Shown here: positions 1,130-14,123 of the stretch, in pieces
Layout: each line of letters starts with the position of its first letter
Position numbering within the stretch: position 1 is the first letter of the stretch
Assembly: GCA_003660555.1 (NCBI GenBank)
Contig: QMUK01000020.1
Span: 1-16,395 of the forward strand
DNA from: Thermococci archaeon
GTDB lineage: Archaea; Hadarchaeota; B88-G9
Direction: 5' to 3'
DNA: 16,395 nucleotides
The notes under the pieces: model-generated
Told to the model about the DNA's origin: nothing
Database searches by the model: none
Seen by the model: only the letters and a program-made list of their open reading frames with translations
Made by a program: the position numbers and the translations under genes

Positions 1130-1184
1130 CAGATGATGAATGTCGTCTCGCCTGAGCAATGATGAGCACGGAGGTGTCTGAATA
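1130..1184 (+). ncRNA. C/D box guide sRNA (2'-O-methylation guide)
   Basis: All four boxes are present in order with canonical archaeal spacing. C box ATGATGA is at 1133-1139, D' box CTGA at 1152-1155, C' box ATGATGA at 1159-1165 and D box CTGA at 1178-1181. Both guide stretches are exactly 12 bases (1140-1151 and 1166-1177), and D' and C' are separated by 3 bases. This is the compact symmetric form that binds L7Ae, Nop5 and fibrillarin. By the N+5 rule the D' guide would modify the fifth base (G) of GCGAGACGACAU, and the D guide the fifth base (C) of ACACCUCCGUGC. I could not match either target to a named rRNA or tRNA site from memory. The terminal stem flanking C and D is weak. RNA ends are estimated. 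The gene ends a few bases before the ribosome binding site of the CBS gene. Confidence 0.9.
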
Positions 1185-5038: not shown

Positions 5039-7081
5039 TTGAGGTACCTAATCGTATCCATGTTAGTTTTGGTTTCGATGGTTCAGCCAGGAGTTAAAGA
5101 AGAAAGAGATGTTTTAGATGAAGCTCTAGATGAAATTGACGTGGAAAAGCTAGGATTCCAAATAAAGGATAGTTGGATATACTTCCCGAGAAGCGAATAC
5201 ACCCTGCCTTTCTTCTGGGGGATATTCCAAGAGCCGCTCAGAATCTATGAATTCTCAGACACTTTAGCGAATTCAGCTAATAGAACTAGAAGTGGCGAGT
5301 ACTCTAGATTCGCCTGGAATTGTCTATTGAGAATGGGATACAAGGTCTCCCTCTACGGACCTAACTTATTCCTAGACGAAAACAGGACTATTGATCAAAT
5401 AAGGGAAATGTATCTCCTGAAAATGGAGCCAATAAGAGGAAAAAGCTTTTCCCAGGTTTCATTCGACTTAGAGAAGGAATACTCCGAGAAGTTAAATGCT
5501 CTCCCAGACGAAGTGGATTCAACCCTCGCTAGACTTCTCCAAGGATTAATCGAGTCTTGGAAGTGGCGTGAAATAGCATTCAGAAATTGTAAGAGTTCTG
5601 TTTTCGGAATAAGAGACTTCACCTCTACCCAGCCGGATGGAACTAAGTTCTATCCGGAAGTACAAGACCTAGAGAGTTGTTTGGACTTCCCATCCCTGTA
5701 TTACTCAGGGATGATTCTCCTCTATACAATTGAAGAATTAAGAGACGATTTGTCCTCCATTAGTGACTTGAAATTAAAGGAGAAAGTAGAACTAGAAACT
5801 CCTCTGGGGAAAGTGATAGTAGGTAGTTCCGAGAAAGACGTTCACGAATTGGAAGACGTGTTCCTATTACTCGACTTGGGAGGAGATGACTACTACTCCG
5901 GAGAAATAGCCTCTACCTCAGAGAAGGTTGGGGTCTCTCTCCTGATAGACTTGGGAGGAAATGATGAATATGAGGGAAAGATCTCCTCTGGGACAATGGG
6001 ATCCTCTCTGCTACTAGACGTTGAAGGCAACGACAAATACTCCTCGAGTGGATACTCTCAAGGGCTAGCTTTCTTCGGATTCTCCTTTCAAATAGATGAG
6101 AATGGAGATGACAAGTACTTCCTAATGGGAGAAGCTGGGCAAGGGGCTGGCATATTCGGTCTGGGAGTATTAATGGACTCCAAAGGGAACGACTTCTATT
6201 ACTGCATGGGAGATTGCCAAGGATATGGTGGAGTCGGAGGTTTCGGTTCTCTGGTTGATCTCGATGGAGATGACTCCTATAAAGCTGAATGGGATCCTAG
6301 GGTCATAGACAGGAGTGATTACCACACGAATGGAGAGTGTAACTACAGCAATGCTCAAGGAGCTGGATTCGGCAGAAGGGGAGATGGCTCAGATGGACAC
6401 ATTTGGTCAGGAGGTCTAGGTGTTTTATTGGACCTTAAAGGAAATGATGAATATGAAGCCGGTACTTTCTCTCAGGGGATAGGATACTGGTTTGGTGTTG
6501 GAATACTTTACGATAAAGCTGGAAACGATCATTATAAGAGTGCTTACTTTACCCAAGGCTCTTGCGCTCATTACTGCATAGGAGCTCTCCTTGATCTTGG
6601 AGGAAACGATTCACATGAGCTATTCTCTACTGCAGGAGCAGCGTACGGTTTCGGATGGGACTTTGGGATCGGTTTCTTCCTAGATAAAGGAGGGGACGAC
6701 TCTTATAGTGCAAAGAGGATAAGTTTCGGATGTGCCGAGGTAAATTCAATAGCTATTTTCTTAGAGCTGGGAGGGAATGACTCATATCACTTTAATGGGA
6801 AATTGGGATTTGGAGCTTCTGACAAAAGAGGGAGATATCATCCGGAGATAGGTATGATGAGGTACGAGGTACCATCGATTGGAATATTCGTTGACGTCCA
6901 CGGTGAAGACATCTACGATTGGGAAGAAGGGATTGCGGAGAATGACTCTAAGTGGTTCAGTCCCCCTAGGAAAGAATGGGGAAAGATGATTAGGAGGGGG
7001 ATCGGAATAGATTCAAACGAAGGGTACATAGGTTTCATTGAAGAAATAGAAAAATTGAAAGAAACGTTGGGAAGTAGTTAG
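5039..7081 (+). CDS. Exported protein with twelve GND-Y repeats (probable beta-solenoid)
   Basis: 680 residues from TTG 5039, preceded by a run of seven G (5028-5034). Residues 1-16 (MRYLIVSMLVLVSMVQ) form a short signal peptide. Residues about 20-270 are mostly polar and probably helical, with no family I recognise. Residues about 274-640 hold twelve copies of a unit of the form hhhD-h-x-G-N/D-D-x-Y, then a glycine-rich turn often containing QGxG. The GND aspartates are at 284, 309, 332, 358, 385, 412, 470, 497, 524, 554, 581 and 624, so the usual period is 27. Long inserts follow the 6th and 11th copies. CMGDC (389-393) and CAHYC (509-513) lie in repeats 5 and 8 and could form disulfides outside the cell. 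The pattern loosely resembles RTX calcium-binding turns but has a much longer unit. There is no C-terminal anchor or catalytic motif. Function is unknown; a surface or secreted binding protein is a guess. Confidence 0.85.
   Translation: MRYLIVSMLVLVSMVQPGVKEERDVLDEALDEIDVEKLGFQIKDSWIYFPRSEYTLPFFWGIFQEPLRIYEFSDTLANSANRTRSGEYSRFAWNCLLRMGYKVSLYGPNLFLDENRTIDQIREMYLLKMEPIRGKSFSQVSFDLEKEYSEKLNALPDEVDSTLARLLQGLIESWKWREIAFRNCKSSVFGIRDFTSTQPDGTKFYPEVQDLESCLDFPSLYYSGMILLYTIEELRDDLSSISDLKLKEKVELETPLGKVIVGSSEKDVHELEDVFLLLDLGGDDYYSGEIASTSEKVGVSLLIDLGGNDEYEGKISSGTMGSSLLLDVEGNDKYSSSGYSQGLAFFGFSFQIDENGDDKYFLMGEAGQGAGIFGLGVLMDSKGNDFYYCMGDCQGYGGVGGFGSLVDLDGDDSYKAEWDPRVIDRSDYHTNGECNYSNAQGAGFGRRGDGSDGHIWSGGLGVLLDLKGNDEYEAGTFSQGIGYWFGVGILYDKAGNDHYKSAYFTQGSCAHYCIGALLDLGGNDSHELFSTAGAAYGFGWDFGIGFFLDKGGDDSYSAKRISFGCAEVNSIAIFLELGGNDSYHFNGKLGFGASDKRGRYHPEIGMMRYEVPSIGIFVDVHGEDIYDWEEGIAENDSKWFSPPRKEWGKMIRRGIGIDSNEGYIGFIEEIEKLKETLGSS
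5858..6956 (+). repeat. Twelve coding tandem repeats, mostly 81 bp
   Basis: In-frame repeats inside the exported protein gene. The conserved core encodes LLDLGGNDxY-like sequences with spacings of 25, 23, 26, 27, 27, 58, 27, 27, 27, 30, 27 and 43 residues (first spacing is copy 1 to copy 2, last is copy 11 to copy 12, with 27 predominating). DNA copies are well diverged, so this is an old protein repeat, not a recent tandem duplication. Confidence 0.85.
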
Positions 7082-10886: not shown

Positions 10887-12881
10887 TTACTTCTTAATTT
10901 CCATCTTCCTCTCTTTTCTATACTCGGATAATTCTCTCTCAAGCCACTCCATCTTCTCTCTAGCTCTTCTCAACGACAAATCAGACAGTTTCTCCCTAAT
11001 TTTTTCCTCTAATTCTGTTTTGTTAGCTATGGCGAAATCTCCTATCCTCTTGACACTTACTTCGTCTTTCTCTATAACAGGCAGTCCTCCACCCTCAAAG
11101 ACCTCTTTAGCTTGATGAGACATGTTTCCATGGCATATCACTGCCCTAATCTTCCTATTTAGGAGTTCAAGTGCAGTTTGGGATCCTCCTCCACTTGGAT
11201 CCAAGATGAGAACTACGTCTCCTCTCTTTATTCCATATAGAGAATCTACCTCCGCTATACATTCTTTAGTGAATCTCTCTAGTACTTTCAGTGGAATTGC
11301 CTCTCCTCTAACTTCTAAGAGTCTCATTCTTCTCATTTCATTTATTTTCTTCATTAGCTCCATGTTTCTTCTTCTTTCTTCCTCCAATTCTTCCCTAAGC
11401 TTTGAGATTATCCTATTCCTCAGAGATATTGCCTCGTCCCTTTTCAGCTCTTTGAATTCCTCTTCAGTGATTTCACGTAATTTATTCTCTAACCTTTTTA
11501 TTTTCTCTCTCAGTTCAATTACTTCATCGAGGTACTCGTCTCTCTCACTCTTTAATCTCTTAATAGTCTCTTCAAGCTCTTTTATCCTCTTGTTCTTCCT
11601 TTCAAGTAACTTTAATGCTTTTTCACTTATTACTTCCTCTCTCCTCTCCTCCATTTTTTCTTCTCTGGGTTTGGATTTCTCTCTTTCCCTTATCGACGAA
11701 ATTACGTCTGAAAGCTTTTCTCCTTTAAGAACTCTTGCTTTAACCTCTTCTTCAAACTCTTCCATCCCTAAGTCTTTTAACCTTGAATAGATGTTCTCTA
11801 ACTTACTTTTATATCTGCTGAGAGCATATAAGGCCGATGCCAGAGCATCTCTTTCGTGATCATTGTCTAAATCGATTTCAACTTCTTTAACAATCCTATT
11901 CTTCTCCTCTACACTCAGAGGTATGCTGGGGCTGAATAACACTGAGTTAAACGAAGAAGATATCTTTTCCACTAATTTGGGTGGATTAGGTACATCACAA
12001 GCTACCAAGACAGGAGTCCCTACCTCACCTATTCTTCGTATCATCTCTCCGAGAGAGAAAGATTTAGAGCTCTCCACTCCTAGTGGATTCCCTCTCAAAT
12101 CCAAGAATGCCATAGCCTTAGTAGTTCCTGGATCTATTCCGACTATTATTGGCTTCTTCTGTGGAGAAGTTCTTTCCTCCGAGAGTGGAACGAAATCGAG
12201 CTTCTCTCTTTCAACTGGAATTATCGAGATTTGTATGTCTCCCTTTCTTCTTCTCACTACTCCCTCTAACTTCTCTCTGCCTGCATAAACTGTGAATTCC
12301 ACCCTGGAATATCCTCCATCCGCACTCTTAGCTACTACATCGTATTCCAGTCCTCTTTCTCTGAATCTATCCTCTATCCGCCTTGATACCTCCCTTATGA
12401 GGGAGTGTATTCTCCTTCGATATCTGTCTTGGCTAAATCCGCCTCTACCAAGGCTTCTCCCCCTACTAACCACCACTCTGGTTTCCTCTTCAAAAACCAA
12501 TACCTTGTAGCCAACTCCCCTTAGAACTAGCCTAGCGCACGCTATTGCTTCTTCCATTGAGCCATTTCCAACTTCTATTCCATGTTCACCCGCTAAAACC
12601 CGTAGAGGCTTACTCTCTCCAGGCCTACCTGTTACCTGTACGAGCGAGGTCTCGGGAGGAAGTCTCGAGTAAAAACTTATTAATCCCTTACTATCGAAGA
12701 GTTCATATATGTTGTCTACAGCTAGGTACTTGGGCCTTATCTCACTTATGAGTCTGAGAAGCCTGTACTTATTTAGGAACTCCTCTTTGAATAGCACCTC
12801 CTCTTCTGAGTTCAATACCACTACGGAATACCTAGGCGGCTCCTTAGATTGGGGCGATCCCTTAGATATGTCCACTCCCAT
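10887..12881 (-). CDS. DUF460-type RNase H-fold protein with long coiled coil
   Basis: 664 residues from ATG 12881. The N-terminal module (1-130) has MGVDISKGSPQS and YLAVDNIYEL. A second module has IVGIDPGTTKAMAFLDLRG with D250, VACDVPNPP with D296, and NDHERDALASALYA with D345. This IDPG... H-x-x-D-A series is the RuvC/RNase H-fold metal pattern. Residues about 407-519 are an almost pure charged coiled coil. A C-terminal globular part follows, with ILDPSGGGSQTALELL, AVICHGNMSHQA and KRIGDFAIA, and a final basic helix. The family is archaeal and described as predicted RNase H-like nucleases; no proven function is known to me. GAGGT lies only two bases before the ATG, and a better GGAGGTGG lies 13 bases before it. 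Coding could extend to 12944 without a stop, but that extension overlaps mre11 and looks unconserved. Confidence 0.85.
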   Translation of the reverse strand: MGVDISKGSPQSKEPPRYSVVVLNSEEEVLFKEEFLNKYRLLRLISEIRPKYLAVDNIYELFDSKGLISFYSRLPPETSLVQVTGRPGESKPLRVLAGEHGIEVGNGSMEEAIACARLVLRGVGYKVLVFEEETRVVVSRGRSLGRGGFSQDRYRRRIHSLIREVSRRIEDRFRERGLEYDVVAKSADGGYSRVEFTVYAGREKLEGVVRRRKGDIQISIIPVEREKLDFVPLSEERTSPQKKPIIVGIDPGTTKAMAFLDLRGNPLGVESSKSFSLGEMIRRIGEVGTPVLVACDVPNPPKLVEKISSSFNSVLFSPSIPLSVEEKNRIVKEVEIDLDNDHERDALASALYALSRYKSKLENIYSRLKDLGMEEFEEEVKARVLKGEKLSDVISSIREREKSKPREEKMEERREEVISEKALKLLERKNKRIKELEETIKRLKSERDEYLDEVIELREKIKRLENKLREITEEEFKELKRDEAISLRNRIISKLREELEEERRRNMELMKKINEMRRMRLLEVRGEAIPLKVLERFTKECIAEVDSLYGIKRGDVVLILDPSGGGSQTALELLNRKIRAVICHGNMSHQAKEVFEGGGLPVIEKDEVSVKRIGDFAIANKTELEEKIREKLSDLSLRRAREKMEWLERELSEYRKERKMEIKK

Positions 12882-12895
12882 TACCTCTATGTTAC

Positions 12896-12908
12896 CACCT
12901 CCGAGGTG
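12896..12908. promoter_or_regulatory. Palindrome with back-to-back Shine-Dalgarno sequences
   Basis: CACCTC-C-GAGGTG is a perfect inverted repeat with one central base. On the + strand GAGGTG is 6 bases before the mre11 TTG at 12915. On the - strand GGAGGTG(G) lies before the DUF460 ATG at 12881. The two start codons are only 33 bases apart, so each gene's TATA box must lie inside the other gene. Confidence 0.6.
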
Positions 12909-12914
12909 TTGGGG

Positions 12915-14123
12915 TTGAAGATTGGAATCATATCCGACACACATCTTGGGTTCGGCTCAGGTCCCAGAGAGATGGACTGTTTCTCCCAAGCAGAGGAGGC
13001 TTTCTCCATAGGCATGAGTGAAGCAGACGTTATATTGTTTGCTGGGGATCTCTTCGACTCAGGGTATCCTAAACCTAAGAGTTGGTACGTCGCCATGGGG
13101 ATACTCTCAAAGAGGTTTTCCAAAGACGATTCTTGGGACGGAGAGTTCATTTCTAGAGACAGAGAATTGAGCGCAAATCATCTCAGGGGTATCCCAGTCG
13201 TGGCTATACATGGAAATCATGAGATTAGGAGGCCAATAAATCCAATAGAGGCCTTACACAAGTCTTCTCTCCTAATAAACCTCCATGGGGAGTCTGTAGT
13301 ACTTGAGGGGAGTGATGGGAAACTAACGATACATGGAATGGGATTTGTCCCAGATAAGTACGCAGCTAAAGCCCTCTCCTCCTGGTCCCCCTCTCCAGAG
13401 GAGGGATTTAACGTGCTGATGCTCCATCAATCAGTCCTAGGATATGTCTATCCAAACGAGAGACCTCTAGAAATTGGAGAAATACCAAAAGGGTTTGATC
13501 TATATGTTTTCGGACACATTCATACGCCTAACAGGGGAGAAATACACGGAAAACCTCTGCTTATTCCAGGTAGCACTGTGAGGACTCAATTGTCCAAATC
13601 CGACTTAAAGGAGAGGGGAATATTCCTATTCGATGTTGAAAAGGGGGTAGACTTCTTCGTAAAGCTTAGGAGACAGAGAACTCTAATTATAAAGGACTTC
13701 CACTTCAAGGACGCCACTGTCAGAGAAATCGAAAAAGAGGTCAGGGAGTTCCTAAATGAGTTTCCTTGGGAGAATTATGAGCTAGGACCCCTAATCAGAA
13801 TTAGAATTCTTGGAGAGCTGAAAGATGGAGAAAGAAAAAGCGATCTTGACCTAAAGGCAATATCAGAAGAGTTTAAGGGAAAAGGAATAATTAGTTTTTC
13901 TAATAGACTCACATCAAAGTTCATGAGGAGATTGGGGAGGATAAGGATGGCTAGAAGAGGATTTCTTAGTGTAAAGGAGTTGGCTCTCTCTATCATAGAG
14001 GAGGAGTTCGGGGAAATGCATTCGATTAGTCCAAGGGAGATTTTTCAAGTTTTGGAGTCTGACTTACCAGATGAAGATGTTTTAGAGAGGTTAAGGAGGT
14101 TATTACTTGATAACCGAAGTTAA
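12915..14123 (+). CDS. mre11: DNA double-strand break repair nuclease Mre11
   Basis: 402 residues from TTG 12915. Mre11 is a Mn-dependent 3'-5' exonuclease and endonuclease that works with Rad50 in end resection. The phosphoesterase ligands are all present: D8 and H10 in ISDTHLG, D45 in AGDLFDSG, N101 and H102 in HGNHE, H171 in LHQSVLG, and H201 and H203 in FGHIHTP. D8 and H10 have the same numbering as in the Pyrococcus enzyme. A capping domain and a C-terminal basic helical region (about 330-402, RLTSKFMRRLGRIRMARRG) follow, the latter probably binding Rad50. Between motifs II and III there are about 20 extra residues (near FSKDDSWDGEFISRDRELSA) compared with my memory of the Pyrococcus spacing. 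The stop overlaps the rad50 start by 17 bases. Confidence 0.95.
   Translation: MKIGIISDTHLGFGSGPREMDCFSQAEEAFSIGMSEADVILFAGDLFDSGYPKPKSWYVAMGILSKRFSKDDSWDGEFISRDRELSANHLRGIPVVAIHGNHEIRRPINPIEALHKSSLLINLHGESVVLEGSDGKLTIHGMGFVPDKYAAKALSSWSPSPEEGFNVLMLHQSVLGYVYPNERPLEIGEIPKGFDLYVFGHIHTPNRGEIHGKPLLIPGSTVRTQLSKSDLKERGIFLFDVEKGVDFFVKLRRQRTLIIKDFHFKDATVREIEKEVREFLNEFPWENYELGPLIRIRILGELKDGERKSDLDLKAISEEFKGKGIISFSNRLTSKFMRRLGRIRMARRGFLSVKELALSIIEEEFGEMHSISPREIFQVLESDLPDEDVLERLRRLLLDNRS
14095..14100 (+). promoter_or_regulatory. Shine-Dalgarno site for rad50 TTG 14107
   Basis: GGAGGT inside the mre11 end, 6 bases before TTG 14107. It fixes the rad50 start and implies coupled translation. Confidence 0.65.

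Follow-up and report, generated by a model that had tools for sequence, protein, structure and literature searches.

The window, by which is meant the whole 16.4-kb stretch of DNA that was analysed, carries at positions 1133–1181 what is very probably a genuine, ordinary double-guide archaeal C/D box sRNA targeting 23S rRNA. Its two predicted methylation sites, G2529 and C2501 in the organism's own 23S numbering, would be the two partners of the closing pair of helix 88, equivalent to the E. coli pair C2395-G2421, beside the E site of the ribosome. This is a known kind of RNA, to which the sRNA adds a well-supported further case, its expression and the methylation being predicted from the sequence. 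The gene lies on contig C20, one of the 150 contigs of a 1.3-Mb archaeal MAG in which the rRNA is carried by contig C2. The sRNA has four boxes in the order C-guide-D'-spacer-C'-guide-D, and the features of the locus are as follows:

1103–1109, + strand: TATA-like TTTTAAA, 24–30 nt 5' of the C box (from the sequence)
1133–1139, + strand: C box ATGATGA, fitting the RTGATGA consensus and aligned in Rfam snoPyro_CD
1140–1151, + strand: D' guide ATGTCGTCTCGC, 12 nt, predicted target 23S G2529 (own numbering)
1152–1155, + strand: D' box CTGA (from the sequence and the four-box pattern)
1156–1158, + strand: spacer GCA between D' and C', 3 nt (from the sequence)
1159–1165, + strand: C' box ATGATGA (from the sequence and the four-box pattern)
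1166–1177, + strand: D guide GCACGGAGGTGT, 12 nt, predicted target 23S C2501 (own numbering)
1178–1181, + strand: D box CTGA (from the sequence and the four-box pattern)
1188–1193, + strand: GGGAGG, likely Shine-Dalgarno sequence of the CBS gene, 6 nt past the D box, with a spacing that suits TTG 1201
1195–2121, + strand: gene for a four-CBS-domain protein (PF00571, four stretches, 189.5 bits)

All four boxes agree exactly with the motifs of the C/D box class (RUGAUGA for C and C', CUGA for D and D'), and the two 12-nt guides and 3-nt spacer have the lengths of that class (guides near 12 nt, short spacer). The box identities, the guide and spacer lengths and the position of TTTTAAA given in the preliminary description were all correct on re-reading of the sequence, and its assignment of the element to the C/D box sRNAs is borne out by the exact boxes and by Rfam C/D matches at a relaxed threshold. 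At the curated threshold, Rfam reported nothing in the window; at the relaxed threshold, the ten best matches between positions 1000 and 1300 were all to archaeal C/D box families, the top match being snoPyro_CD (1129–1184, 32.4 bits, E = 3.4e-5, for a gathering score of 45). A terminal stem flanking the C and D boxes is common in archaeal C/D sRNAs, and was taken here as not required; no such stem was found around the boxes, the flanks GCAG and ATAA being unpaired, and the 3-bp stem of snoPyro_CD is not formed in 1129–1184, where its three pairs are non-standard. The complete four-box pattern matches 1133–1181 alone in the window and had no match on either strand of eight simulated genomes of equal size and dinucleotide make-up, in agreement with the earlier judgement that the arrangement is very unlikely by chance. 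A looser three-box pattern yields by chance about four matches per simulated genome.

The preliminary description left both targets unplaced, and considered that the modification might be lineage-specific. It is true that the genome contains the full 12-base D' target nowhere except in the sRNA gene itself; a search allowing one mismatch matched, besides the sRNA gene, only three unrelated contigs and was set aside. The 9-bp cores of the guides, however, match 23S rRNA at G2529 and C2501 when pairing is scored in the correct guide register, with a threshold of at least nine Watson-Crick pairs covering nucleotide N+5, which is the published significance rule (PMC4644070); by this rule, both guides have significant matches in the organism's own 23S rRNA. 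The D' guide forms nine uninterrupted Watson-Crick pairs with 23S 2525–2536 (guide positions 3–11; predicted Gm2529), and the D guide forms nine with 2497–2508 (also guide positions 3–11; predicted Cm2501), in agreement with the base types, G for D' and C for D, predicted earlier. Both duplexes are mismatched at guide position 2, which leaves 9 bp, short of the ideal, and the D duplex additionally has wobbles at positions 1 and 12. The match of a single guide is weak, as about 7–9% of shuffled guides equal it. The two predicted sites are separated by 28 nt, and double guides are defined by two targets within 100 nt (PMC4644070); with shuffled guides, a joint match within that distance had a chance of 3.4e-4, and with random 12-mers that precede CTGA in this genome, one of 1.8e-4. 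No comparable guide matches were found in the organism's own 16S rRNA, in the 23S rRNA of another archaeal genome (G048, considered below) or in E. coli 16S and 23S rRNA, and the top scores among 37 distinct tRNAs, part of the full set, were 7, versus 9 and 8.5 for 23S rRNA. For guides that remain unmatched over 12 bases, these results recommend scoring the register of core pairing before calling them orphan or lineage-specific.

Genes for all the sRNP proteins are present in the genome: fibrillarin (320 bits, contig C2), Nop5 (235 bits, C43) and L7Ae (115 bits, C28). A three-box search of the genome found nine distinct places, versus about four expected from simulation, so some of them are chance matches; those on C3 (L097), C42 (L105), C121 (L107), C6 (L099) and C29 (L103) show the full set of four boxes, or near variants of them, and the sRNAs on C6 (23S 2684 and 2711) and C121 (23S 201 and 239) resemble double guides. 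As a positive control, the D' guide of the C6 sRNA matches the 23S position aligned to E. coli C2606, a site for which methylation was predicted in all six thermophiles (PMC4644070), and this match supports the method of target placement.

D' guides in the same register occur in other archaea as well. A search of 394 archaeal genomes used a pattern made up of a C box, a D' guide over the same positions and an equally spaced CTGA; 21 genomes contained it, namely the one studied here and 20 of the 393 others, versus a single match for a reversed control pattern. C'- and D-like boxes follow in all 20 of the other genomes, which belong to three families, and four of ten scanned loci among the genomes with the pattern are Rfam sR55. 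The D' guides of these genomes read GTCATCCC (once GTCATCTC), as compared with GTCGTCTC here, and they agree with the archaeal consensus of RF02540, GGGAUGACA. Covariation between guide and rRNA was read for the D' guide in one other genome, G048, which has the rRNA sequence AGGGATGAC and the guide GTCATCCCT; the corresponding sequences here are GAGACGACA and TGTCGTCTC, two pairs being altered on both sides. With its own rRNA, each guide forms a perfect nine-base duplex, and the swapped combinations have wobbles or mismatches at the two altered pairs. The D' target is best supported by these two compensatory changes between separate RNAs. The D' modification, a methylation predicted from sequence, is not lineage-specific, and in this respect the earlier suggestion does not hold. 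Three other approaches were discarded: comparison of the sRNA region with the DNA of 60 relatives gave chance matches only, repeats of TGATGAGCACGGAGGT in other archaea lay in surrounding sequence without C/D boxes, and the other matches to GTCGTCTC followed by CTGA within the phylum were without C/D architecture.

C2501 and G2529 occupy the paired columns 50 and 78 of the Rfam archaeal 23S model RF02540 (column 1 being own position 2452), and form the outermost pair of helix 88. In E. coli numbering, C2501 is C2395 by alignment; for G2529, the helix pairing points to G2421, whereas plain alignment, with a 2-nt loop gap, gives 2422. A published simulation model has A76 of the E-site tRNA in contact with G2421 and the nucleotide next to it (PMC7658246). 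Yeast has two snR48-guided methylations, Gm2791 and Gm2793, labelled as E-site modifications (PMC8307265), and yeast C2764 is equivalent to E. coli C2394 (PMC8430933); by offset from C2764, rather than by alignment, we infer that yeast Gm2791 corresponds to E. coli G2421, and is thus the counterpart of G2529. A literature search on the lineage and on helix 88 guides returned no direct report, the site lists of PMC4644070 lying outside this search. Together, these observations suggest an old, testable modification site, with predicted methylations on both partners of the helix 88 closing pair and a D' site common to distant archaea and perhaps to yeast.

The sRNA gene directly precedes the CBS gene, for which the in-frame TTG at 1201 is a likelier start than the listed GTG at 1195. 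The TTTTAAA at 1103–1109 is a possible promoter of the sRNA, judging from its sequence, or perhaps of a joint sRNA-CBS transcript; a scan for sigma-70 promoters and terminators, a method ill-suited to archaea, returned nothing. The sequence GGAGGTGT is present twice, at 1170–1177 in the D guide and at 1189–1196 at the ribosome-binding site of the CBS gene, and the D-guide copy could pair with 7 nt at the 3' end of 16S rRNA. The nearest public record, NJEE01000042.1 (Candidatus Bathyarchaeota archaeon ex4484_205), is 99.1% identical over 4.2 kb and contains the sRNA unchanged, which argues against an assembly error; the two stretches are so similar that identity of the sRNA says little about selection. 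No such sRNA adjoins the CBS homologues retrieved from more distant genomes (about 30–43% identical). The proposal that retention beside the CBS gene in close relatives be used as a test therefore proved weakly informative, with one relative at about 99% keeping both and the distant homologues standing without the sRNA. Elsewhere in the window, no open reading frame with a Pfam match is found in positions 1–1100, where frames +3 (3–140) and +2 (128–160) look like the end of one protein split by a frameshift, and short fragments further along resemble a second broken gene; family searches with these pieces gave nothing significant, and this region probably consists of decayed genes upstream of the intact sRNA. 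Positions 5039–7081 contain a 680-aa open reading frame in which glycine- and aspartate-rich motifs (LLDLGGNDxY) recur and for which Pfam gave no match, and positions 10887–12944 (- strand) encode a DUF460 protein (PF04312, 143 bits) whose long C-terminal part is charged and resembles a coiled coil.

The sRNA, if expressed, would present two kink-turn motifs (C/D and C'/D') for binding by L7Ae, which would recruit Nop5 and fibrillarin. The D' guide would pair with 23S rRNA around G2529, the D guide would do so around C2501, and fibrillarin would methylate the 2'-O of both nucleotides. The two strands of helix 88 would be held in one sRNP, which might therefore also act as a folding chaperone before their release. 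A cis effect of the sRNA on the adjoining CBS gene is possible by analogy. Shared transcription, with sRNP assembly trimming the transcript shortly past the D box, hence at the CBS ribosome-binding site, such that each transcript yields either guide RNA or CBS protein, is an unlikely refinement; if it did occur, it would tie a metabolic sensor-type gene to the capacity for ribosome modification.

A different reading would make the element a kink-turn leader of the CBS gene, mainly regulating that gene by binding L7Ae or an sRNP in cis and blocking or removing the Shine-Dalgarno sequence. The gap of 6 nt from the end of the D box to GGGAGG and the interval between sRNA and CBS gene, which is devoid of an obvious separate promoter, would suit such a leader, and precedents exist: Sulfolobus L7Ae represses its own mRNA through a k-turn in the 5' UTR (PMC5539422), and C/D sRNA genes that overlap the 5' end of a downstream gene lower its expression (reviewed in PMC7994747). 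Guides would be superfluous in a leader, and here the two pair in register with 23S rRNA and one of them covaries with it; the element is missing beside distant CBS homologues, and C/D sRNAs are also found elsewhere in the genome. Regulation of the CBS gene as the main function is thus very improbable.

The possibility that this is a C/D sRNA whose main target lies elsewhere than in 23S helix 88, for example in a tRNA or at the 3' end of 16S rRNA, derives from the Shine-Dalgarno-like GGAGGUG in the D guide, with which 7 nt of the 16S 3' end (CACCUCC) can pair, and from the finding that, for roughly one in three archaeal C/D sRNAs, there is no significant rRNA match (PMC4644070). The 16S match is two pairs shorter than the 23S matches and leaves the other guide without a partner site, and the best tRNAs in the partial set scanned score below both 23S sites, making another main target very improbable. 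The last alternative is a chance mimic, produced by repeated ATGATGA and CTGA words or by the short overlapping frames MMNVVSPEQ and MMSTEVSE: two mini-ORFs in tandem, meeting at ATGA, can be read from the stretch, and three-box patterns are common by chance. The simulations never reached the complete four-box pattern, however, and neither a double in-register rRNA match nor cross-species covariation would be expected of mini-ORFs, so that coincidence can be considered extremely improbable. The double-guide sRNA directed at helix 88 is the reading retained.

Among known systems, sR55 (RF01307), found in genomes of family f9, has the same D' guide register and 23S position, and shares the C/D architecture. 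The identity of its D' target is based on the register relative to CTGA and on the RF02540 consensus, the genome in which the target nucleotide itself was read being G048, whose sRNA lies outside sR55. The sRNA described here scores 14 bits with RF01307, below the gathering threshold of 35, the D guides differ, and the f9 sR55 loci have a conserved ORF (MLGFLRRKK...) downstream instead of a CBS gene. In the f9 loci L138–L145, the sR55-like sRNA stands directly before this ORF (M(L/I/F)GFLRRKK... YLSEPTILYHT) and its D box is overlapped by GAGGTG, which resembles a ribosome-binding site, so overlap of an sRNA with the 5' end of a gene recurs. The four boxes align with snoPyro_CD (RF00095), a general Pyrococcus C/D sRNA, over the full model length (1–58), whereas the score remains below the gathering value, the guides are unrelated and the terminal stem is unformed. 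The double guides of Dennis et al. (2015; PMC4644070) are alike in having two guides, at least nine pairs covering N+5 and targets within 100 nt, and the sRNA would bridge the strands of one helix, as proposed for sR15 and sR17 of N. equitans; it differs in belonging to a lineage outside that study and in having predicted sites that are partners of a single base pair. This targeting of paired nucleotides, together with the covariation of guide and rRNA, lends modest extra interest to what is otherwise the addition, to a poorly studied archaeal lineage, of a C/D guide RNA with both predicted targets placed. Yeast snR48, which guides Gm2791 and Gm2793 in 25S rRNA (PMC8307265), likewise directs 2'-O-methylation at the E site, the comparison being one of inferred position rather than of sequence.
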